This document shows, piece after piece, positions 2,989-11,292 of a stretch of DNA of 64,000 bases. Source of the stretch: Streptomyces sp. Q6 (GTDB lineage Bacteria > Actinomycetota > Actinomycetes > Streptomycetales > Streptomycetaceae); assembly GCF_036967205.1 (NCBI RefSeq), contig NZ_CP146022.1, positions 5,456,001-5,520,000 of the forward strand, read 5' to 3'. Each line of letters starts with the position of its first letter. Position 1 is the stretch's first letter. The position numbers and the translations under genes were made by a program. The notes beneath the pieces are model-generated. The model was not told where the DNA came from and ran no database searches. It was given only the letters and a program-made list of their open reading frames with translations.

Positions 2989-2997
2989 GTTTTTCCC

Positions 2998-3107
2998 GTG
3001 CTGGGATGGTGCTGGGATAGCTGACCCCTCGTCACCTGTCGTCATCCCTGGTCATCCGTACCGTGCTGGGATCGTGCTGGGAGGGGATGAGAAGCCCGTG
3101 CTGGGTT
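2998..3107. repeat. Clustered GTGCTGGGAT repeats (putative integrase arm sites, left)
   Basis: GTGCTGGGAT occurs at 2998 and 3009 (11-bp spacing) and at 3063; GTGCTGGGAG is at 3074 and GTGCTGGGTT at 3098. Identical paired copies with the same 11-bp spacing are at the right end (11136 and 11147). Short direct repeats beside an att core are typical of arm-type binding sites of tyrosine integrases. The stretch 2910-3236 holds no gene. Confidence 0.6.
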
Positions 3108-3236: not shown

Positions 3237-3521
3237 ATGGGTGAGACGACGTACAGCATCGGGGAAGGTCCGGCGACGCGGGTGAGCCTGTCGCTGCCCG
3301 AAGGGACCGCGGAGGCGATCCGGGCGCGGGTGGGGAAGCGGGAGTTCTCCGCGTTCATCACCGAGGCGGTCGAGCGCGAGCTGCGCGGGCAGGTCCTGGA
3401 CGAGTACCTGGCGGACTACGAGAGCCGCAAGGGGCCCGTCTCCGAACCGGCTCGGCAGAGGGCGCGGCAGGTCTTCGACGAGGTGTTCGCCGAGGAGGCG
3501 GAGTGGCCCGCCGCAGGCTGA
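3237..3521 (+). CDS. Antitoxin, ribbon-helix-helix type (VapB-like)
   Basis: This 94-residue protein has an N-terminal ribbon-helix-helix-like segment (RVSLSLPEGTAEAIRARVG, about residues 15-33) followed by FSAFITEAVERELR, the usual DNA-binding fold of autorepressing antitoxins. The acidic, helical C-terminal half would bind and inhibit the toxin. The stop lies inside the start region of the PIN-domain gene (19-bp overlap), the translational coupling normal for such pairs. On the island it may act as an addiction module. Family assignment is from pattern; the exact VapB subfamily is not determined. Confidence 0.8.
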   Translation: MGETTYSIGEGPATRVSLSLPEGTAEAIRARVGKREFSAFITEAVERELRGQVLDEYLADYESRKGPVSEPARQRARQVFDEVFAEEAEWPAAG

Positions 3522-3916
3522 GTCACGAGGGGACGTTGGTCCTCGACAGCGAGGGACTCTCGAAGCTGCTCGCCGACGACGAGCAGGTGGTGGCTCTGAT
3601 CGCCGAGGCACGCTCGCGCGGCATGGAGGTCGTGATCAGTGCGCTCACCATCATCGAAGCGGTCCATGCCCGTACGAACAAGTCCCGCCTGAATTGGGTG
3701 CTTTCCGGGCTGCGGGTCGTCCCGGTGGGTGACGAGGAGGCGAGGGCGGCCTCGAAGTTGCTGATGAATGCCGGGTTGCACGGGCACAAGTACGCGATCG
3801 ATGCGGCGGTCGCCGAGGCGGCGCTGCGGCAGCACCGTCCCGTGGTCATGCTGACTTCCGATATCGACGACATGGCCAAGCTGTGCGGTGAGCGGGTCCG
3901 GCTCGTGGCGGTGTGA
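3503..3916 (+). CDS. PIN-domain ribonuclease toxin (VapC-like)
   Basis: The protein has 137 residues from GTG 3503, which overlaps the antitoxin gene. PIN-domain acidic residues are visible: D15 in LVLDSEG, E52 in TIIEAVH, D100 in YAIDAAVAEAAL and D120/D122 in TSDIDD. PIN toxins are Mg2+-dependent RNases that cleave tRNA or rRNA when released from their antitoxin. The cluster is intact, so the toxin is probably active. Length and operon layout fit VapBC. It ends before a strong stem-loop shared with the convergent gene. Confidence 0.85.
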   Translation: MARRRLSHEGTLVLDSEGLSKLLADDEQVVALIAEARSRGMEVVISALTIIEAVHARTNKSRLNWVLSGLRVVPVGDEEARAASKLLMNAGLHGHKYAIDAAVAEAALRQHRPVVMLTSDIDDMAKLCGERVRLVAV

Positions 3917-4078: not shown

Positions 4079-5467
4079 TCAGTAGGAGCGGGGCCCGTAG
4101 GGGCTCCAGTGGCCGAGGAAGGGCTTGAGGTCGTCGCCGCTGGGCTTCGGCGGTGTGGGCAGCTTTGGTGCTGAGGCGGATTCGGTGAGGTGTTGGAGGT
4201 GCGCGTCCGCGAATGCGAGCCACGCCTCGATCTCGGTCCGTTCCTGTCCGGGCGGCAGTGATGTGGCGCGGTCGCGTACTGCTGTGACGTATTCGGTCAG
4301 GTGGTTGGCCTTGTGCCAGGCGTCTGCCTGTTCTCCGAGGTGTTTGACGCGATAGGCGTGGGCGTAGGCGGCGCGGGCTTCCTGCATGACGGCTTCCCAC
4401 CGCTTTTGCTGCACCTCTCTGGCTTGCTGGTCTGCAAGACGTTTACGTTCCGCGGCTTCGCCGCGCAGGCCGACCTCTTGCACGATCTCGGCGAGTTGGT
4501 CTTCCAGCGGCCGGTCGGGGAGGTCGGCCCATTCGCTGGCGCGGTGCGGGCTGCCCCCGCGGAGCATGAAACGCAGGCGGCTGGAGGGGGTGTAGTCGAA
4601 GCGGGCAATGCGCATCCATGAGTATTTCTTGGCGTCGGCGAGTTCCTTGTCCGTGGGGACGTGTTCGCTGCGGTCTTGTTCTTGAAGGACGAGGAATCCG
4701 ACACTTTCGCCTTGGGCGGTGATGGTGAAATGCGGTGGCGCCTTACGGCGGCGATGGGGCGGGGGCGCGCCCTGTGTGGTTCCGAGCGCTGCCTTATGGC
4801 CCTGTGCTTCGGTGGCGGCGATGAGGGTCTGGATGATGCGCAGGGCTCGGCCCTGGAGGGGTTTGGTCAGGCCCATGGGCTGCGGCTGCTTTTGAAGGGC
4901 GGCCACGACGGCATGGGGTTTGGTGAGTCTGGCCGGCACGGGGAGCGGGGTGAGTTCAGCGAGGCGCCAGGCAGGGATGTCGACCAGCTTGATTTCGTAG
5001 CCGCGGTGGGTGCGGTATCCGTAGAGTTCCTGCGTGTGGGGGATCTTGCCGGACTTGCGGGCGGCGTTGACCCGTGACGTCCAATTCACTGCGTGCGGGC
5101 CGGATTCGATGGGCTTGATGAGACAGCCATCGTTCGCGGCCAGTTCTTCGAGTAGTTGGTCCGCGTAGTTCGTACGGGCGTTCGGTGCGGCTCTGGGGCG
5201 CGGCGGTGCCGGTTTTCGGGCGGGACGTTCCGGTGGTCGGGTGCTCTGCTCCACGGGGAGGATGCCGCGTTCGGTGAGATGCTGCCGCCCCTTCTCGGTG
5301 AGGTGGGCGCTCCAATGCCCGCGGCGCTTGGTGACTTTGATGAGCCCTCGGTTCTGCAGGGCCTGTCCGCTGGTCTTGTACGTGCTGTCCGGCCAGACTC
5401 CTTCGGGACACCCCTGGCCCACCCAGTCGAGCACGACCCGCTGCCGCTCGTTGAGGGCCTGGTCCAT
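4079..5467 (-). CDS. Hypothetical protein of the island (462 aa)
   Basis: I do not recognise a named family. The N-terminal 80 residues (ERQRVVLDWVGQGCPEGVW, then a stretch ending ALQNRGLIKVTKRRGHWSA) look like a winged-helix domain of the type in which a query residue string is followed by a strand-rich wing. A proline/arginine-rich linker is followed by a second similar block near residues 100-165, a central mixed domain, and a charged helical segment (about 345-375, rich in Q, K, R and E) that could form a coiled coil. No signal peptide or membrane segment is seen. Proteins of this kind are, in my recollection, frequent on actinobacterial integrative elements. A regulatory or DNA-binding role is a guess. 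Confidence 0.6.
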   Translation of the reverse strand: MDQALNERQRVVLDWVGQGCPEGVWPDSTYKTSGQALQNRGLIKVTKRRGHWSAHLTEKGRQHLTERGILPVEQSTRPPERPARKPAPPRPRAAPNARTNYADQLLEELAANDGCLIKPIESGPHAVNWTSRVNAARKSGKIPHTQELYGYRTHRGYEIKLVDIPAWRLAELTPLPVPARLTKPHAVVAALQKQPQPMGLTKPLQGRALRIIQTLIAATEAQGHKAALGTTQGAPPPHRRRKAPPHFTITAQGESVGFLVLQEQDRSEHVPTDKELADAKKYSWMRIARFDYTPSSRLRFMLRGGSPHRASEWADLPDRPLEDQLAEIVQEVGLRGEAAERKRLADQQAREVQQKRWEAVMQEARAAYAHAYRVKHLGEQADAWHKANHLTEYVTAVRDRATSLPPGQERTEIEAWLAFADAHLQHLTESASAPKLPTPPKPSGDDLKPFLGHWSPYGPRSY

Positions 5468-5801: not shown

Positions 5802-6401
5802 ATGGATCCCGCCGTCACAGCCACGCTCATCACCACCCCCACCGCCATTTTGGCCGCTGCAGCGGCCTACGCCGCGGGGAGCGCCCAGGGGCGCGGGAGC
5901 GTGGACGCCGTCCGCCGTCAGCAACAGCGCGAGGTCTATGCCGCATTTCTCACAGCGGCCCGGCGGCACAAGGCGGACATTGCGGAGGCTCTCGCTCACG
6001 CCACGGAGATACAACTGGCGCGCGCTGCCGGCGAGCCGCTTAGCCCTGCAGAGGAGGAGCAGCGGCGCGAGGCGATCGCGGCCACCGCCCGAGCTAATCC
6101 TTTGGATGAACCAGCCGCCTTGGTGTTCCTTGAAGGACCTGACGAGCTCGCCTACGCAGCCCTCCTCATCGATCAACACGCCAAATCGACGCGCATGCTC
6201 CTGACAGCGACGCCGGAACATGCAGGCACCATGTCTCGAATCCATGGGCGGCCGATGACAGTTCACGACGAATGTCGTCGGCTTGAGGGCGCCATCCACA
6301 GATTCACGCTCGAAGCCCAAGCGCACCTGAATGGCACCGCATTACGGCATCGTCGACACCAGAGGCGGTTGATGCGCCGCCTCTGGCCTGTCGAACCTTG
6401 A
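5802..6401 (+). CDS. Hypothetical protein with N-terminal membrane helix
   Basis: This 199-residue protein has one hydrophobic segment near the N-terminus (roughly residues 5-28, rich in Thr, Ala, Ile and Leu) followed by a long soluble helical region with many Arg, Glu and Gln. A single N-terminal anchor with a cytoplasmic helical body is a common layout for small unknown proteins in Streptomyces accessory regions. I cannot assign a function. It starts with ATG 5802 (MDPAVTATL). Downstream lies only the transposase remnant, so it is probably a single-gene unit of the island. Confidence 0.6.
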   Translation: MDPAVTATLITTPTAILAAAAAYAAGSAQGRGSVDAVRRQQQREVYAAFLTAARRHKADIAEALAHATEIQLARAAGEPLSPAEEEQRREAIAATARANPLDEPAALVFLEGPDELAYAALLIDQHAKSTRMLLTATPEHAGTMSRIHGRPMTVHDECRRLEGAIHRFTLEAQAHLNGTALRHRRHQRRLMRRLWPVEP

Positions 6402-6549: not shown

Positions 6550-7030
6550 CAGTAGCTGGCCAGTACGTTGCTGGCGGCTTGCCAGGCGTGGGTTCGGCTG
6601 GTGGAAGTCGCCGCGCCGCGGGTGAACGACAAACGCGTCGATGCCACCACCGGCGAGCGTAAGCGGATCTCCTCGAAGGTTCTGCCGCTGAGTTGCCGCA
6701 AGTGGCCGAAGATCCCCGGCGTGCTGCCGCTGCCTTATCTGCACGGCCTGTATTCCGGAGACTTCATGCCCGCGTTGGAGCAGTGCCTCGGTTGTCGTCG
6801 GGCGATGACCACGCTGCCTTCCAGACCCGCGACCTGTCGCCGGCCGACTACGTCTCCGTATGGGCCGATCCTGTGTGTCTCAAGGTCCGCCTGGGCCAGG
6901 CGGACCTTGCGTGCTGGTGCTGATGCGCCTGGACGGCTCCAAGGAGCTGATCGCGCTGGCCGAGGGCCTGCGCGAGTCGAGCGAGTCGTGGGCGGATGTG
7001 CTGCGGGACGTGCCCGCCCCGCGCAACCCC
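6550..7030 (+). pseudogene. Remnant of an IS256-family (mutator-type) transposase
   Basis: Pieces of one transposase are scattered over three frames. In the first, KIPGVLPLPYLHGLYSGDF followed by PALEQCLG matches the conserved block normally read as VLPLLYLHGLSSGDFVPALEQFLG. A second frame continues with DLSPADYVSVWADP, equivalent to the DLSGVDYVYVWVDG block around a DDE aspartate. A third frame continues with LMRLDGSKELIALAEGLRES and SWADVLRD. The N- and C-terminal parts are missing and no terminal inverted repeats are obvious. It is an old, dead insertion; 6402-7059 contains nothing else I can support. Confidence 0.8.
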
Positions 7031-7059
7031 CGGCGGCAAGCGGCAGACCGACAGCGCCG

Positions 7060-7611
7060 TCAGCGGCCTCGGATCTGTTTGGCCACCCCAGTGGTGTTGT
7101 ACCGGTACCGGGCCATCTCCTCGGTCACGCCGTAGTGCTCGGCGATCTGCGCCGGCCCCCACTGGCGGCGGACTGCGCCGAGCAGCAGGGGGCGGGGAAG
7201 CATGAGTGTTCCGCCGAAGGCGGTGGCTTGTTCTTCCTCGTCGGGGCGGCAGGTCCTGAAGGGCATGCCGTTGACTTCGCGGATCTCGGTGAGGTCGTGC
7301 TTCAGGAAGAGGTGGGAGAGCTCGTGGGCCACGTCGCTGGCCCTGCGGCCCGGGGTTCGGAGCGGGTTGGTGACGACGATGTTCCTGCCGGAGACCTGGA
7401 AGGTCGCGGCGGAGAAGGCGTACGCCTGGACCCGTTCGAGTTCTTCGAGGCGGGTGCGGCTGACGAGCTTCTCGGCGCTGACGATCTTGACCTTGAGGTG
7501 GTCGGCGAGGTCGTCGACGTTCAGGACATCGGTGTCGCTGAGGCCGAGTTCGCGGCGCACTCGGAGGGCTTCTCGTTCGGCGTTGGCCTTGAAGCCTCGG
7601 GGGAGGGTCAC
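7060..7611 (-). CDS. ImmA/IrrE-type zinc metallopeptidase
   Basis: The protein has 183 residues from GTG 7611, overlapping the stop of the upstream XRE gene by 3-4 bases (GTGA), so the two are translationally coupled. The zinc motif HELSH is at residues 96-100 inside VAHELSHLFL, with a downstream acidic ligand candidate in EEEQATAF (about 126-128). ImmA/IrrE peptidases cleave a partner repressor, usually of the XRE type encoded next to them, in response to DNA damage or phage. Here the partner is presumably the adjacent XRE protein. The motif is seen; the substrate is inferred. It is the second gene of a minus-strand pair divergent from the ubiquitin-like operon. Confidence 0.88.
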   Translation of the reverse strand: MTLPRGFKANAEREALRVRRELGLSDTDVLNVDDLADHLKVKIVSAEKLVSRTRLEELERVQAYAFSAATFQVSGRNIVVTNPLRTPGRRASDVAHELSHLFLKHDLTEIREVNGMPFRTCRPDEEEQATAFGGTLMLPRPLLLGAVRRQWGPAQIAEHYGVTEEMARYRYNTTGVAKQIRGR

Positions 7612-8141
7612 AGTTCGCCTGCTTCGACGAGTCGTTCGAGTTCGGTGTTCATGTCGGTGAGCAGGTCGGCGAGCCGCTGGGGGGCGCCAGGACGCAGCAC
7701 CGAGGCAGCCCGGAGGTGGCAGGCAAGGGCGGGTACGGCGGGGACCGCCTCCTTCGCGAGGGCGTCGTAGAGGTCGCGCAGAACGGAGCTGATCTTGTTC
7801 GCCGCGTCGTCGGTGAGCCGGGGGTCTGCGTGGAGGTGGGTGATGGCCTGGTCGAGGGGCGAGATCTCGCGGGTGGCGGTCGGGGTGAAGAAGCGGCTCG
7901 GGGCGACGCCGAGCCAGGCGCAGAGGCGGGTGAAGGTGGCGAGGTCGGGCTGAGCGCCGGCTTCGACCCTGGTCAGGGTGCTGAAGCTGACGCCCGCCTC
8001 GGCGGCGGCCTGCCGGAGGGAGAGGGGGCCGCGGTGTTCCTTCAGGAGGCGTCCGAGTTCGGCGACGTCGAATTGCTCGACAGCGTCCGGTCCGGTCTCT
8101 TCGGGGTCCGGGAGAGGGAGCTGGCTCCGGTCGGGGCTCAT
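7608..8141 (-). CDS. XRE-family transcriptional regulator
   Basis: This 177-residue protein has a Cro/CI-type helix-turn-helix at about residues 28-80: LSLRQAAAEAGVSFSTLTRVE is the recognition region and DLATFTRLCAWLGV the following helix. The C-terminal half is helical and of unknown fold, possibly dimerising and protease-sensitive. It is followed at once by the ImmA-type peptidase and is divergent from the Ubl-E2-JAB-E1 operon across a 139-bp gap. The arrangement suggests that it represses its own pair and the conjugation operon, with relief by ImmA cleavage. Regulation is inference from layout. Confidence 0.87.
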   Translation of the reverse strand: MSPDRSQLPLPDPEETGPDAVEQFDVAELGRLLKEHRGPLSLRQAAAEAGVSFSTLTRVEAGAQPDLATFTRLCAWLGVAPSRFFTPTATREISPLDQAITHLHADPRLTDDAANKISSVLRDLYDALAKEAVPAVPALACHLRAASVLRPGAPQRLADLLTDMNTELERLVEAGEL

Positions 8142-8280
8142 ACGGGCAGCGTAGCGCGCAGCAATACGGCGATGAAGCTTGACTGCATCGACCCCAGGTG
8201 ATCACACTGGAGACGCAGTGACGCTTTGCTGAATCAGCAGGGCTCTCCCGTAGCAGCCTCGAAGGACTTAGGAGATCGGT
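8142..8280. promoter_or_regulatory. Divergent promoter region between xre/immA and the ubiquitin-like operon
   Basis: TTGACT at 8179-8184 is a possible -35 for the plus-strand operon, with a weak -10 (TCACAC at 8202-8207, spacing 17). An eight-base palindrome, GTGATCAC (8199-8206), overlaps that -10 and is a candidate XRE operator. Upstream of the Ubl start, TTAGGAGATCGGT supplies a good ribosome binding site. The promoter call is tentative; the palindrome is seen directly. Confidence 0.4.
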
Positions 8281-8544
8281 ATGCCCCAGCCCCAGGAGAT
8301 CAAGACCACGGTGACGTCCGCCCTCGCCGGGCACCCGTACCAGCACGACTACGCCCCGCAGGTGACCGCCACGAGCGTCCTGTCCGACGCGCTCATCGCC
8401 TTCGGCTTCGGCAGCGACGGCACCACCCGCTACTACCTGTTCTTCGACGGGCACGAGGTCCCGCCCGAGGCGACGGTGGGCGAACTGGCCGGGCACGCCA
8501 GGGCCCTGCACCTGAAGCTGCGAACCGAGACCACCAACGGCTAG
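8281..8544 (+). CDS. Ubiquitin-like modifier protein (BilA-like)
   Basis: This 87-residue protein has the size and strand-helix-strand pattern of a single beta-grasp fold: an N-terminal beta hairpin (residues 7-30), a helix (TSVLSDALIAFGF), then strands around YYLFFDGHEV, ATVGELAG and a final strand ALHLKLRTE. The protein ends in TTNG, leaving a C-terminal glycine as in conjugated ubiquitin-like proteins, so no processing would be strictly needed. It is the first gene of an operon with E2, JAB and E1 genes, which is the main reason for the call. BilA proteins usually have two Ubl domains, and this one shows only one. Sequence similarity to ubiquitin itself is not visible by eye. Confidence 0.72.
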   Translation: MPQPQEIKTTVTSALAGHPYQHDYAPQVTATSVLSDALIAFGFGSDGTTRYYLFFDGHEVPPEATVGELAGHARALHLKLRTETTNG

Positions 8545-8560
8545 AGCTCGGGAGTCAGTC

Positions 8561-9004
8561 GTGGATCTCGAAAGCCGTCTGCGGCTGGCGGGCGACGTCC
8601 CGGCGGTCGAGGAGTTCCTCTCCTCGACCGCTGGCCGTCTCCACCGCCGCGACCAGGACCCCGACGGCCTGTTCTGGGCCGAGGTACAGCCGCTCAACGG
8701 TGAGCGCGCAGCGTTTATCGCCCGGATCGAGTGGACGGTCTATCCGGACCGGCCGCCCTCCCTCGTCTTCGTCGAGTCGATTGGCGCCTCCGGAGTCGGA
8801 GCCCGCAGTGCGTGGCCGGGAGTGGATGGCTATCGCTACGACTCCAACGACGTGTGCAAGCCGTTCACCGCCGAAGGTCAGAGGCTCCACTCCGAGTGGA
8901 GCAGGGGGCCGCATTCCTGGCGGAGCACCGGCAATCCCTTCCTGTACGTGGTGGAGAACGTGCAGGACGACATCGATCGCGTTGACGGGAGGCGTGCCGG
9001 ATGA
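8561..9004 (+). CDS. E2-like ubiquitin-conjugating enzyme (BilB-like)
   Basis: The protein has 147 residues from GTG 8561, preceded by GGGAG. It follows the UBC-fold pattern: a strand ending in EWTVYPDRPPSLVFVES (the YPxxPP turn at 61-66 is the hallmark of E2 enzymes), then SNDVCKPF with C99 as the likely catalytic cysteine, and a C-terminal helical part. It would accept the activated Ubl from the E1 and pass it to a target. It lies 16 bp after the Ubl gene, and its stop overlaps the JAB start (ATGA). No canonical HPN tripeptide precedes the cysteine, as in many bacterial E2-like proteins. Confidence 0.78.
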   Translation: MDLESRLRLAGDVPAVEEFLSSTAGRLHRRDQDPDGLFWAEVQPLNGERAAFIARIEWTVYPDRPPSLVFVESIGASGVGARSAWPGVDGYRYDSNDVCKPFTAEGQRLHSEWSRGPHSWRSTGNPFLYVVENVQDDIDRVDGRRAG

Positions 9005-9501
9005 CCACCGACACGAGGCAGCTGGCGCTGCCGACCGGTGCGGTCGGCCCGGTGCTGAAGGAGATTCGGCGCCACGGGCTGGCCGACCAGGAGACCGGTG
9101 CGCTGCTGCTGACCGGGCAGTCGGACATGTGCGTGCGGGTCGTGGCGGTGGCCGGGACGGCGGGGATCGTGCGGGAGCCGGATCTGTTCACGGTGAGCGC
9201 GGTCGCGTACGACCGGCTGTTCACCTTCGCCGAGGAACGGTCCTACCAGGTGCGGGCGATGATCCACTCACACCCCGAGGAGGCTTTCCTGTCGCGGACC
9301 GACCGCGCGTACTCGCTGCGCGTACCGGGGTTCGTCAGCGCTGTCGTCCCGACCTATACAGCGCCGCCCGCCGACCCGGTGTCGTGGGGGTGGTGGCGTT
9401 TCGAGCAGGACTGGGTGCCCTGCACCGCTCCGGTTGCCGACCCGGCGCTGCCCCCGGTGCGCACGGTGGTGTTCGACGAGGAGGGTGTCCGTGAGTACTG
9501 A
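9001..9501 (+). CDS. JAB/JAMM-type deubiquitinase-like metalloprotease (BilC-like)
   Basis: This 166-residue JAB1/MPN-domain protein has a complete JAMM zinc site: E31 (QETGALLL), H89 and H91 (MIHSHPEEAF), S98 and D101 (LSRTD). In Bil, CBASS and other bacterial conjugation operons this peptidase trims or removes the ubiquitin-like protein. Since the Ubl here already ends in glycine, removal of conjugates is the more likely role. Its start overlaps the E2 stop and its end overlaps the E1 start (GTGAGTACTGA), so the operon is tightly coupled. All five motif residues are present, which makes an active enzyme likely. Confidence 0.9.
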   Translation: MTTDTRQLALPTGAVGPVLKEIRRHGLADQETGALLLTGQSDMCVRVVAVAGTAGIVREPDLFTVSAVAYDRLFTFAEERSYQVRAMIHSHPEEAFLSRTDRAYSLRVPGFVSAVVPTYTAPPADPVSWGWWRFEQDWVPCTAPVADPALPPVRTVVFDEEGVREY

Positions 9502-10972
9502 CTACAGCCGCAGCGTACGCCTAGGCGGCCTGGCCGCCGGCGTAGGAGAGACCACCCTGCGGGAGCGGATGGAGGGCACCCTGATCCACCTGACCGCAGA
9601 CAGGCACCTGCCCGCGGCCGCCGAGACTCTAGAAGTACTGGTGGCGGACCTGCGCCGGTGGCCGGTCCGGCTGAGTCTGGATCCCGGCCGCGGACCGGGA
9701 CGGCTCGACGACCAACTCATCCGCAGGCTGGCGGACACGGCGACCGGGATCGATCCGGACCGGCCGCTTCGCATCGGCGAGGCCCAGGCCAAGGCGCCCC
9801 TGCATCTGCACGTGGGAACCGCACCACCGCTGGGTACTGCGGTGGCCGGTGCGCCGGACGGACACGGGGTCCGTCTGCGGCACACCGATCATCCTTTCCC
9901 CCGGCTCAACGCGCCCGGCACCGGCCTGGGCGCGGTCCTCACTGCAGCGATGCTGGCCGGCGAGGCGTTCAAGGTCGTTGCCAGGCTGCGGGAGGGGACG
10001 TTCCAGGTGACCCCGGTGGTGGACTTCTGCCCCGTCCTCCCCGGTGAGCAACCCGGGATCGTCGTCGCCCCGCTGCCCGCGCTGGAGCAGGTGCTGCTGG
10101 GCGGGGGCGGTGCAATCGGCACCGGCATCGCCCTGGTCCTGGACCTGCTGCAGATCTCCGGCGAGTTGACGGTGGTGGACAGGGAGGTCTTCGAGAAACC
10201 GAACGTCACCTCGTACAGCATCGGCACCCTGGCCGACGCGGCTGCGGGCCTGCCGAAGGTGCGGTTGATCGATGCGCGCCTACGGCGGATCGACGTGACC
10301 CCGTTCCACGGGACGATCCAGGACTCCATCGAGGCCATCGATGCGGGCACCCTTCCGTGGCCCCGAATCGTCTTCGGCGGGCTGGACAGCGTCGAGGCCC
10401 GGCACGACCTGCAGCGGCTGCAGGCCGATCTCACCCTGGACGGCAGCACCGGCGGCCCGGTCGGCACCACTGTCGCCCTGCACGAGGCACTGCCCACCGG
10501 CCCCTGCCTGCGCTGCTACTTCAAGGCCAACCACACCGGGAAGAGCGCGGAGCAGCGACTGCATGAACTGACTGGGCTCCCGCTATCTCGAATCGCCCGC
10601 GGGCAGGAGCCCCTGACCGAACGGGACCTGGAAGGCCTGGACAATCAACAGCGGGAACTCGTCAGGCAGTTCCTCGGACGGCCGGTGTGCGGGCTGATCA
10701 ACTCGGCCGAGCTGACCGGTAGAGCGGACGATGGGTTCCGTCCTTCGGCCGCGTTCGTGGCCCAGCAGGCCGCTTGCCTGGTCGTCGGCGCCTGGATCGC
10801 ACGTAGCACGGGCCTGGTCAGCGGACCTCCACGACGCATCGAGTACGACACCCGCTTCGGACCCCGGCCCGACCAGATGATCGACCACCGGCTTCCCACC
10901 CCTGGGTGCGTGTGCCAGAAGGACGCTGCTCTCATCAAGTTCATCCGAGAAGCCCGACGCATCCGCCCTTGA
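9491..10972 (+). CDS. E1-like ubiquitin-activating enzyme, ThiF fold (BilD-like)
   Basis: The protein has 493 residues from GTG 9491, which overlaps the JAB stop. Residues 1-195 form an N-terminal domain of unknown detail, comparable in position to the inactive or accessory half of Bil E1 proteins. Residues 200-450 form the adenylating Rossmann domain: GGGGAIGTG at 204-212, TVVD ending at D230, and FGGLDSVEARHDL with D299 and R304. C339/C342 (CLRC) and C473/C475 (CVC) look like a zinc site, as in many ThiF/E1 proteins. C400 in GRPVCGL is a candidate for the thioester cysteine. It adenylates the Ubl C-terminus with ATP. This is the last gene of the operon. Confidence 0.88.
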   Translation: MSTDYSRSVRLGGLAAGVGETTLRERMEGTLIHLTADRHLPAAAETLEVLVADLRRWPVRLSLDPGRGPGRLDDQLIRRLADTATGIDPDRPLRIGEAQAKAPLHLHVGTAPPLGTAVAGAPDGHGVRLRHTDHPFPRLNAPGTGLGAVLTAAMLAGEAFKVVARLREGTFQVTPVVDFCPVLPGEQPGIVVAPLPALEQVLLGGGGAIGTGIALVLDLLQISGELTVVDREVFEKPNVTSYSIGTLADAAAGLPKVRLIDARLRRIDVTPFHGTIQDSIEAIDAGTLPWPRIVFGGLDSVEARHDLQRLQADLTLDGSTGGPVGTTVALHEALPTGPCLRCYFKANHTGKSAEQRLHELTGLPLSRIARGQEPLTERDLEGLDNQQRELVRQFLGRPVCGLINSAELTGRADDGFRPSAAFVAQQAACLVVGAWIARSTGLVSGPPRRIEYDTRFGPRPDQMIDHRLPTPGCVCQKDAALIKFIREARRIRP

Positions 10973-11188
10973 CACCTCGTCGCTGCCGGTCGAAAGGCGT
11001 GGTGTAAGGACATGCGGTTTCCTTGTCCGGAGTTGACTGTGACCGGAAGCTATCGCGCAGCGAGCGCCACGCCTTCGCGCGGCTACTCTGTAATCTTGGC
11101 ACCCCTGGATCTTCTTGTACTTTGTCGCGGATCCCGTGCTGGGATGGTGCTGGGATGCGCCTGCATTTCCGCAGTTCAGAGCCTTGTC
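10973..11188. other. Right end of the island without a gene
   Basis: This is non-coding sequence between the E1 gene and the duplicated ychF tail. It holds the right-hand GTGCTGGGAT pair (11136 and 11147) but no supported gene. A short open frame ending in the residues EFRFNV at 11212 only reads through the duplicated ychF end. Confidence 0.6.
11136..11156. repeat. Paired GTGCTGGGAT repeats (putative integrase arm sites, right)
   Basis: Two perfect copies at 11136-11145 and 11147-11156 are spaced exactly as the pair at 2998 and 3009, and both are preceded by CCC. They lie about 33 bp inside the right core repeat. Confidence 0.6.
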
Positions 11189-11292
11189 GTGGAGTTCCGC
11201 TTCAACGTGTAGCGGAACGCGTCACCACGTCGCTGCCCCCGCACCACACATCCAGGTCAGCAAGGGTCCGGCTCTTCGGGGTCGGGCCCTTG
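11189..11292. repeat. Right island end (attR-like): duplicated ychF tail and terminator
   Basis: The 24 bp at 11189-11212 equal the end of ychF apart from one synonymous C/T change. The homology continues to the hairpin GGGTCCG (11264-11270) / CGGGCCC (11283-11289), the counterpart of the 2960 terminator. The original chromosomal ychF end was probably here before insertion. Confidence 0.75.

Follow-up and report, generated by a model that had tools for sequence, protein, structure and literature searches.

The window analyzed here, a stretch of 64,000 nucleotides from the genome of Streptomyces sp. Q6 (contig NZ_CP146022.1, positions 5,456,001 to 5,520,000), carries at its positions 8281-10972 (+ strand) an operon of four genes for a ubiquitin-like protein (Ubl), an E2-like conjugating enzyme, a JAB peptidase, and an E1-like activating enzyme. 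Very probably, this operon encodes a functional Bil-type conjugation system, one that lies outside the canonical DUF2604/Metal_CEHH subtype. Judging from the sequence, it is very likely that the operon conjugates its Ubl, and by analogy with known Bil systems it is likely that we are dealing with a complete, though diverged, Bil-type system that is used against phages. Within the reach of the literature and database searches made, the clade to which the operon belongs appears to be uncharacterized. The genes are as follows.

8281-8544, + strand: Ubl, 87 residues, predicted single-domain beta-grasp modifier ending in LRTETTNG
8561-9004, + strand: E2-like conjugating enzyme, GTG start, 147 amino acids, YPDRPP motif, candidate catalytic cysteine C99 accompanied by E105 and H110
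9001-9501, + strand: JAB/JAMM peptidase of BilC type, 166 amino acids, with E31, H89xH91, S98, and D101
9491-10972, + strand: E1-like activating enzyme of BilD type, GTG start, 493 amino acids

The genes touch or overlap, as an initial annotation made from the letters alone had described: the JAB gene overlaps the E2 gene by 4 nt and the E1 gene overlaps the JAB gene by 11 nt (another in-frame GTG is found 6 nt upstream of the assigned E1 start). These open reading frames are not a product of chance, because the same gene set in the same order recurs in 18 of 20 distinct actinobacterial loci, a number that includes the window and in which identical loci were merged (L005 with L020, L006 with L019). 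Both exceptions are truncated relatives, L013:9505-11479, where the JAB and E1 genes are present without the Ubl and E2 genes, and L021:9814-10498, which is a fragment. The functional assignment of the four products has been sustained as well: the predicted folds of the Ubl and E2, the solved relatives of the JAB and E1, and the invariant catalytic residues (the cysteines, the JAMM site, and the glycine of the Ubl) are the reasons for which we consider the system to be a working one of the Bil kind.

The best solved relative of the JAB is BilC (8tyx_B, 1.2e-13), with the next solved match at 3.2e-4, and its JAMM site is complete, as annotated, with all five residues (E31, H89, H91, S98, and D101) invariant in 17/17 sequences. 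The E1 is composed of an N-terminal inactive-type domain, a ThiF-type active domain (Pfam E=1.1e-10, which exceeds the cut-off), and a Cys domain that contains C400, and it has the Zn-type pairs C339/C342 and C473/C475; the GxGAIG motif, K256, C400, and both pairs are invariant in 18/18 sequences. BilD (8tyz) came first in the PDB search of the E1 at 6.1e-4 and was the sole solved match aligned across both domains (21-266). A full-length profile-profile comparison of the clade E1s with canonical BilD gave 5.7e-17 over 447 columns and placed C400 opposite C417 of BilD (Cys417 according to the review PMC11354881). The annotation of the protein as an E1 is supported.

The same E1 could also be thought to belong to a sulfur-transfer or cofactor pathway, in which a ThiF/MoeB-like E1 would act on a ThiS/MoaD-like carrier. 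The ThiF domain, weak matches to ThiF/MoeB subfamilies and to MccB, and the Zn-type cysteine pairs speak for this, and so does the loss of an ATP-site arginine (see below), which makes for a chemically odd E1. The curated NCBIfam scores of this group are, however, far from being reached (21.8 bits against a cut-off of 275.25 for ThiF and 19.2 against 510 for another ThiF/MoeB model), the E2 is a dedicated one with an invariant cysteine, the N-terminal domain and the Cys domain of the E1 are of BilD type, and no thiamine or molybdenum gene occurs within the six-gene unit formed by the operon and its two regulators. The MoeB protein encoded by the same genome matched the E1 profile at 2.5e-4 over 49 columns, an uneven comparison of one sequence against four. 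On the basis of the NCBIfam scores and the weak MoeB match, the ThiF/MoeB identity was rejected. We therefore hold a cofactor pathway to be very improbable and continue with Ubl conjugation.

The predicted structure of the 87-residue Ubl, which the initial annotation had proposed to examine, is a ubiquitin-like beta-grasp, and the C-terminal glycine that it had pointed out is conserved in 17/17 aligned relatives. In 5 of these 17, and likewise in Janibacter, one or two residues follow the glycine and the JAB would therefore have to mature the Ubl, whereas the window Ubl ends in a glycine exposed without processing, so that the role of the window JAB would be limited to deconjugation. A single-domain Ubl had been put forward as a difference from Bil, and this did not hold: the solved BilA 8tyx_A, which best matches the protein of Sinorhizobium NGR234, is a single-domain protein of 98 residues, and Bil operons L022, L024, L027, and L028 encode Ubls of 88-101 residues (the Methylobacterium BilA, 8u38, has 243 residues). 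The single domain was thus discarded as a novelty. What does set the window Ubl apart is that Pfam lists no match to DUF2604 (PF10790) at E<=1, while the canonical Ubls of L022 and L027 match this family at 2.5e-28 and 2.9e-35, respectively.

The E2 is predicted to adopt a UBC-type fold, and in a ranking of solved structures against the predicted model BilB came first, tied with eukaryotic E2s. The candidate catalytic cysteine C99 that had been annotated is invariant in 17/17 sequences; from the YPxxPP motif annotated with it, Y61, P62, and P66 are likewise present in 17/17, but P65 is merely near-invariant. The active site of the clade reads C-x5-E-x4-H, with C99, E105 at +6, Q107 at +8, and H110 at +11, in contrast to the canonical one (CEHH), where the cysteine is followed by a glutamate at +6 and histidines at +8 and +13; no Pfam match of the E2 to Metal_CEHH (PF14455) is listed. 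In the Janibacter plasmid locus (L025, NZ_CP046475.1) the PLSDB gene table, whose incompleteness is known, does not list the E2, and a frame is open in the gap between the Ubl and JAB genes, at about 9012-9470.

The relation to Bil asserted in the initial annotation therefore stands, while the notion of a plain BilABCD copy does not. Shared with canonical Bil, for which the operon of NGR234 is the prototype (PF10790 Ubl, PF14455 E2; it matches solved BilA, BilB, and BilD almost throughout), are the gene order, which is also seen in L027 and L028, the BilC-type JAMM protease, the BilD-type two-domain E1 with its Cys domain, and, as predicted models, the single-domain Ubl with its ubiquitin fold and C-terminal glycine and the UBC fold of the E2 with a candidate cysteine. 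Through this prototype, the canonical subtype corresponds to row 6c in the work of Iyer et al. (2006). The differences are a Ubl and an E2 outside PF10790 and PF14455, the C-x5-E-x4-H arrangement, a serine or threonine in place of the arginine of the NxxR motif, a separate E1 clade, and a pair of XRE and M78 regulators; the Pfam misses and the separate clade ruled out membership in the canonical subtype. The search with Bil profiles that had been suggested gave a mixed result: PADLOC matched BilA (0.0011), BilC (3e-12), and BilD (8e-5), and the E2 was without any model. In Pfam, ThiF was above its cut-off, Prok-JAB was slightly below (22 vs 25 bits), and the Ubl and E2 were without a meaningful match.

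The clade is tied to Bil by the operon of a Deinococcus aetherius plasmid (L026), since its E2 matches the E2 family of the clade at 2.8e-22 in a nearly full-length alignment and the operon matches all four PADLOC models (BilA 1.1e-4, BilB 0.0048, BilC 1.8e-8, and BilD 4.9e-24). It has the same gene order and an E1 that also lacks the NxxR arginine, and it differs in that its E1 is 31% identical over the C-terminal 317 columns and its repressor and M78 protease are fused into a single protein. In the E1 tree, the 14 rows of the clade fall together (97/100) and apart from four canonical BilD sequences (99/99), which substantiates the suggestion of a distinct branch; the Deinococcus E1 appears as sister to the clade (88/97), at a place where a warning of long branches meeting applies. 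By its E1 sequences, then, this is a well-supported clade found in Actinomycetota that is nearest to the Deinococcus plasmid operon.

Three other operons were encountered in these comparisons. A haloarchaeal Ubl-E2-JAB-E1 operon on a plasmid of Natrinema zhouii (L030:2285-5047) matches BilB (1e-5), BilC (1.8e-10), and BilD (1.2e-29) in PADLOC, with no match for its Ubl, and its E1, which seems to be without the Cys-domain cysteine, groups with that of actinobacterial L023 (100/98). On a plasmid of Bradyrhizobium sp. 184 (L031:802-5011), an operon of multi-ubiquitin, E2, JAB, and E1 genes has a WYL-domain regulator lying divergently beside it, which may be a switch like CapW on a further branch. 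The canonical Bil operon of Rhizobium etli p42a (L028:1593-6623) is followed by TIR-domain and caspase-family genes.

The distribution of the system is patchy. Relatives of the E1 were found in 4 of 392 sampled genomes of the genus and in 3 of 394 sampled genomes of the class, the source genome included in both cases, and a scan of GTDB with two peptide patterns, which sets a lower bound, yielded at least 15 E1 loci, all of them in Actinomycetota by title. On plasmids the E1 matched proteins from Janibacter (46%), Deinococcus (29%), and, in part, Paenibacillus (25% of the query, E 4e-3). An E1 scan of a viral contig collection gave 117 pattern matches and no relatives, and no relatives were found by tblastn within a phage collection.

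Complete cores span Streptomyces to Micrococcales, which speaks against the alternative that a mobile element here carries a remnant in decay or without catalytic activity. In favor of decay one may name the lost E1 arginine, the truncated relatives L013 and L021, and the ratio of nonsynonymous to synonymous substitution rates (dN/dS) of the Ubl, 0.32-0.90 in comparison with six Streptomyces copies. In the same comparison, however, dN/dS was 0.16-0.42 for the E2, 0.25-0.42 for the E1, and 0.35-0.64 for the JAB, and the two regulators, compared with five Streptomyces copies, gave 0.10-0.19 (XRE) and 0.15-0.21 (M78), so that the ratio is below 1 for all six genes in each pair compared and the Ubl is the least constrained. 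Considering also that the catalytic cysteines and JAMM residues are kept in 17/17 or 18/18 sequences, a remnant is in our view highly improbable, and a functional conjugation system remains the preferred reading.

Upstream of the operon, the following features are found.

7608-8141, - strand: XRE-type helix-turn-helix (HTH) repressor, Pfam HTH_31 1.9e-8, divergent from the operon
7060-7611, - strand: M78 (ImmA/IrrE-type) metallopeptidase, HELSH, 183 amino acids, Pfam Peptidase_M78 8.3e-16, paired with the repressor
8178-8190, no strand: operator-like site 1 (cttgactgcatcg), at the aligned place of TTGCGTGCAACA-type sites in other genera, window variant TGCATC
8224-8237, no strand: operator-like site 2 (ctttgctgaatcag), at the aligned place of CTTTGCTGCAACAG-type sites in other genera, window variant TGAATC

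The operon thus does have its own regulator pair, as annotated, and a divergent pair adjoins all 18 complete cores. As with CapH+CapP, ImmR+ImmA, and DdrO+IrrE, an XRE-type HTH repressor and an HExxH M78 protease stand next to the immune-type operon that they presumably regulate. In PADLOC, the M78 protein matches capP (1.5e-9) and RmrA (1e-8); its match among solved structures is doubtful (E 0.012). The window differs from CapH+CapP in that its repressor matches capH at just E=0.0091 and its M78 protein ends about 13 residues past the domain, the capP match covering 31-150 of 242 positions. The XRE and M78 proteins of the window family accompany 14 of the 18 complete cores, and diverged ones are present at L014 and L015 (about 34% identity, measured on L015). 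At the remaining two, Nocardioides L019 and the Janibacter plasmid, the pair consists of a STAS-winged HTH protein and a GHKL-like protein and resembles CapS/CapK: the C-terminal part of the Janibacter STAS protein matches 9z71 (E 1.4e-4), which is identified as Enterobacter roggenkampii CapS in PMC13373217, its GHKL partner has an HATPase match below the cut-off (0.0059), and the Nocardioides relative of this partner, 65% identical to it, is without a Pfam match. In other genera, two TTGC/TGCAACA-like sites lie at matching places of the shared promoter region, of which the window holds variants; sites 1 and 2 may serve as operators, candidates that were judged by eye and by shared 8-9-mers (in at most 4 loci, near-copies excluded).

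From these components, the following order of events may be proposed. The divergent XRE repressor would hold expression off until its cleavage by the M78 protease, probably upon DNA damage or infection, releases it. The E1 would then bind ATP and adenylate the C-terminal Gly87 of the Ubl, which would be moved onto C400 of the E1 as a thioester and then handed on to C99 of the E2, the enzyme that would attach it to target proteins. The JAMM protease would take the Ubl off again and, in relatives with one or two residues past the glycine, also mature it. If the analogy with Bil is valid, the targets are probably structural proteins of the phage, and poorly assembled progeny would result.

An anti-phage function is what we infer from the patchy spread, the relation to Bil, and neighborhoods that contain mobile elements and defense genes. 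Other copies of the operon have a relaxase and integrases in their vicinity, or DrmD- and DrmMI-like (DISARM-like) proteins, type I restriction, and TnsB; the neighbor proteins that were scanned were hand-picked, and in one set 8 of 10 gave defense-like matches. The same three lines of evidence make it rather unlikely, though not negligibly so, that the Ubl is instead conjugated to host proteins in a response to DNA damage or stress, with phage defense being secondary or absent. This alternative draws on the regulators: both the XRE+M78 pair and the STAS-winged HTH and GHKL-like pair of Janibacter and Nocardioides belong to classes that respond to DNA damage elsewhere, according to PMC13373217, PMC10904395, and PMC10233336. 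Bub operons, which also consist of Ubl-conjugation genes, carry such regulators too, and according to PMC13373217 they are without demonstrated phage protection and may serve stress responses; of 544 Bub operons counted there, 219 adjoin CapW or CapH+CapP and 59 adjoin CapK+CapS. The window operon is not of the Bub type itself, as its JAB and E1 are separate genes, whereas BubCD, to read from its name and length, is a JAB-E1 fusion, and with the E1 profile BubCD scores no better than E=1, compared to 6.1e-4 for BilD. Phage defense by a Bil-type system is still the reading that we favor.

Several observations weigh against it. The E2 sequence has no meaningful match in Pfam, PADLOC, NCBIfam, or the PDB, nor has the Ubl sequence in a search of the PDB, and profile comparisons of the clade with the canonical proteins are weak for both (for the E2, 59% probability and E 9e-5 over 73 columns; for the Ubl, 31% probability and E 5e-4). 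In the PDB search of the E1, MccB follows at 7.3e-4, so that BilD is ahead only by alignment length, and a six-row E1 profile gave no match at E<=0.01. The arginine of the NxxR motif contacts ATP phosphates in MoeB-type enzymes; it is replaced by S or T in 18/18 E1s of the clade and, outside the clade and Deinococcus, retained in all 8 E1 rows compared. D299, within a conserved D-x4-R, is found in 17 of 18 E1s, with H in L004. The window Ubl does not need maturation, which leaves the JAB role resting on deconjugation, and the upper Ubl dN/dS value, 0.90, comes from one pair. Finally, the M78 protein is shorter than CapP, which makes its part in sensing less certain.

The six genes are shared as a unit with other Streptomyces and, in the window, are part of a larger island, the features of which are listed below.

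7008-10976, no strand: six-gene cassette (XRE, M78, Ubl, E2, JAB, and E1), a unit common to other Streptomyces with differing flanks
2883-2987, + strand: left island boundary, ychF 3' end and terminator-like stretch, repeat of 11186-11291
11186-11291, + strand: right island boundary, duplicated ychF 3' end and terminator-like stretch, 79.6% over 108 columns vs the left copy
2994-3083, + strand: two double repeats GTGCTGGGATnGTGCTGGGA, just inside the left island end
11132-11156, + strand: third double-repeat copy, just inside the right end, 25 nt identical to 2994-3018
3237-3916, + strand: VapBC-like pair at the left island end, PIN domain 5.9e-5 on 3503-3913, barely above the cut-off

The cassette (3.97 kb) is 91-94% identical at the DNA level in seven Streptomyces loci (L007-L011, L037, and L038), and homology stops at its edges, where no terminal repeats were seen, with no further search made. 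Long flanks are common only to L008, L009, and L010 and to L037 and L038, and none match those of the window. The 8.3-kb island is bounded by the duplicated ychF 3' end, and GTGCTGGGATnGTGCTGGGA occurs three times in the 8.95-Mb genome, each time at this island (control 0), so the genomic island of the initial annotation is real; its description as integrative is matched by the duplicated target end and not by an integrase, since none was recognized when genes were predicted from 2.9 to 11.3 kb with a simple codon-based caller, although either of two familyless island proteins might be one. These are a 462-residue protein (4079-5467, - strand) with no confident match in Pfam, PADLOC, or NCBIfam and a 199-residue protein (5802-6401, + strand) with none in PADLOC or NCBIfam. 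For the first gene of the VapBC-like pair, which matched no family, the likeness to VapB is one of position alone.

The ychF 3' end is also occupied in other Streptomyces. In G049, G031, and G013 the same VapBC-like pair lies next to the ychF end or its duplicate, together with GTGCTGGGA repeats and with differing genes behind. In G049, what adjoins the ychF end is another stretch, about 15.5 kb long, which begins with the VapBC-like pair and ends with a copy of the ychF end (78%) that is without the GTGCTGGGA motif; no integrase was seen among its proteins, which were read by eye only. G059 has neither repeats nor island at this place, and a single small gene separates ychF from the same AsnC and amidase genes.

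A bolder view, which we put forward only tentatively and consider doubtful, is that the clade is a deep, as yet uncharacterized branch of Ubl defense with an altered E1, which lost the near-universal ATP-site arginine throughout the clade and its Deinococcus sister and perhaps uses a residue of the N-terminal domain instead, and with a one-histidine E2, and that its conjugation core was rewired to varied DNA-damage switches and became a portable 4-kb induced tagging cassette with targets unlike those of known Bil systems. Independently of this, Bil-type conjugation would be extended to a clade whose E2 escapes the family libraries run, and surveys that require a recognized BilB may therefore overlook it. 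With an E1 that is devoid of the usual arginine at the ATP site, it becomes possible to test how little chemistry Ubl activation requires. That one conserved core is combined with different regulators (XRE+M78, CapS/CapK-like, and the fused form in Deinococcus) supports the idea that these systems are induced and not expressed constitutively, and Streptomyces, with its well-used laboratory strains and phages, is suited for testing it.

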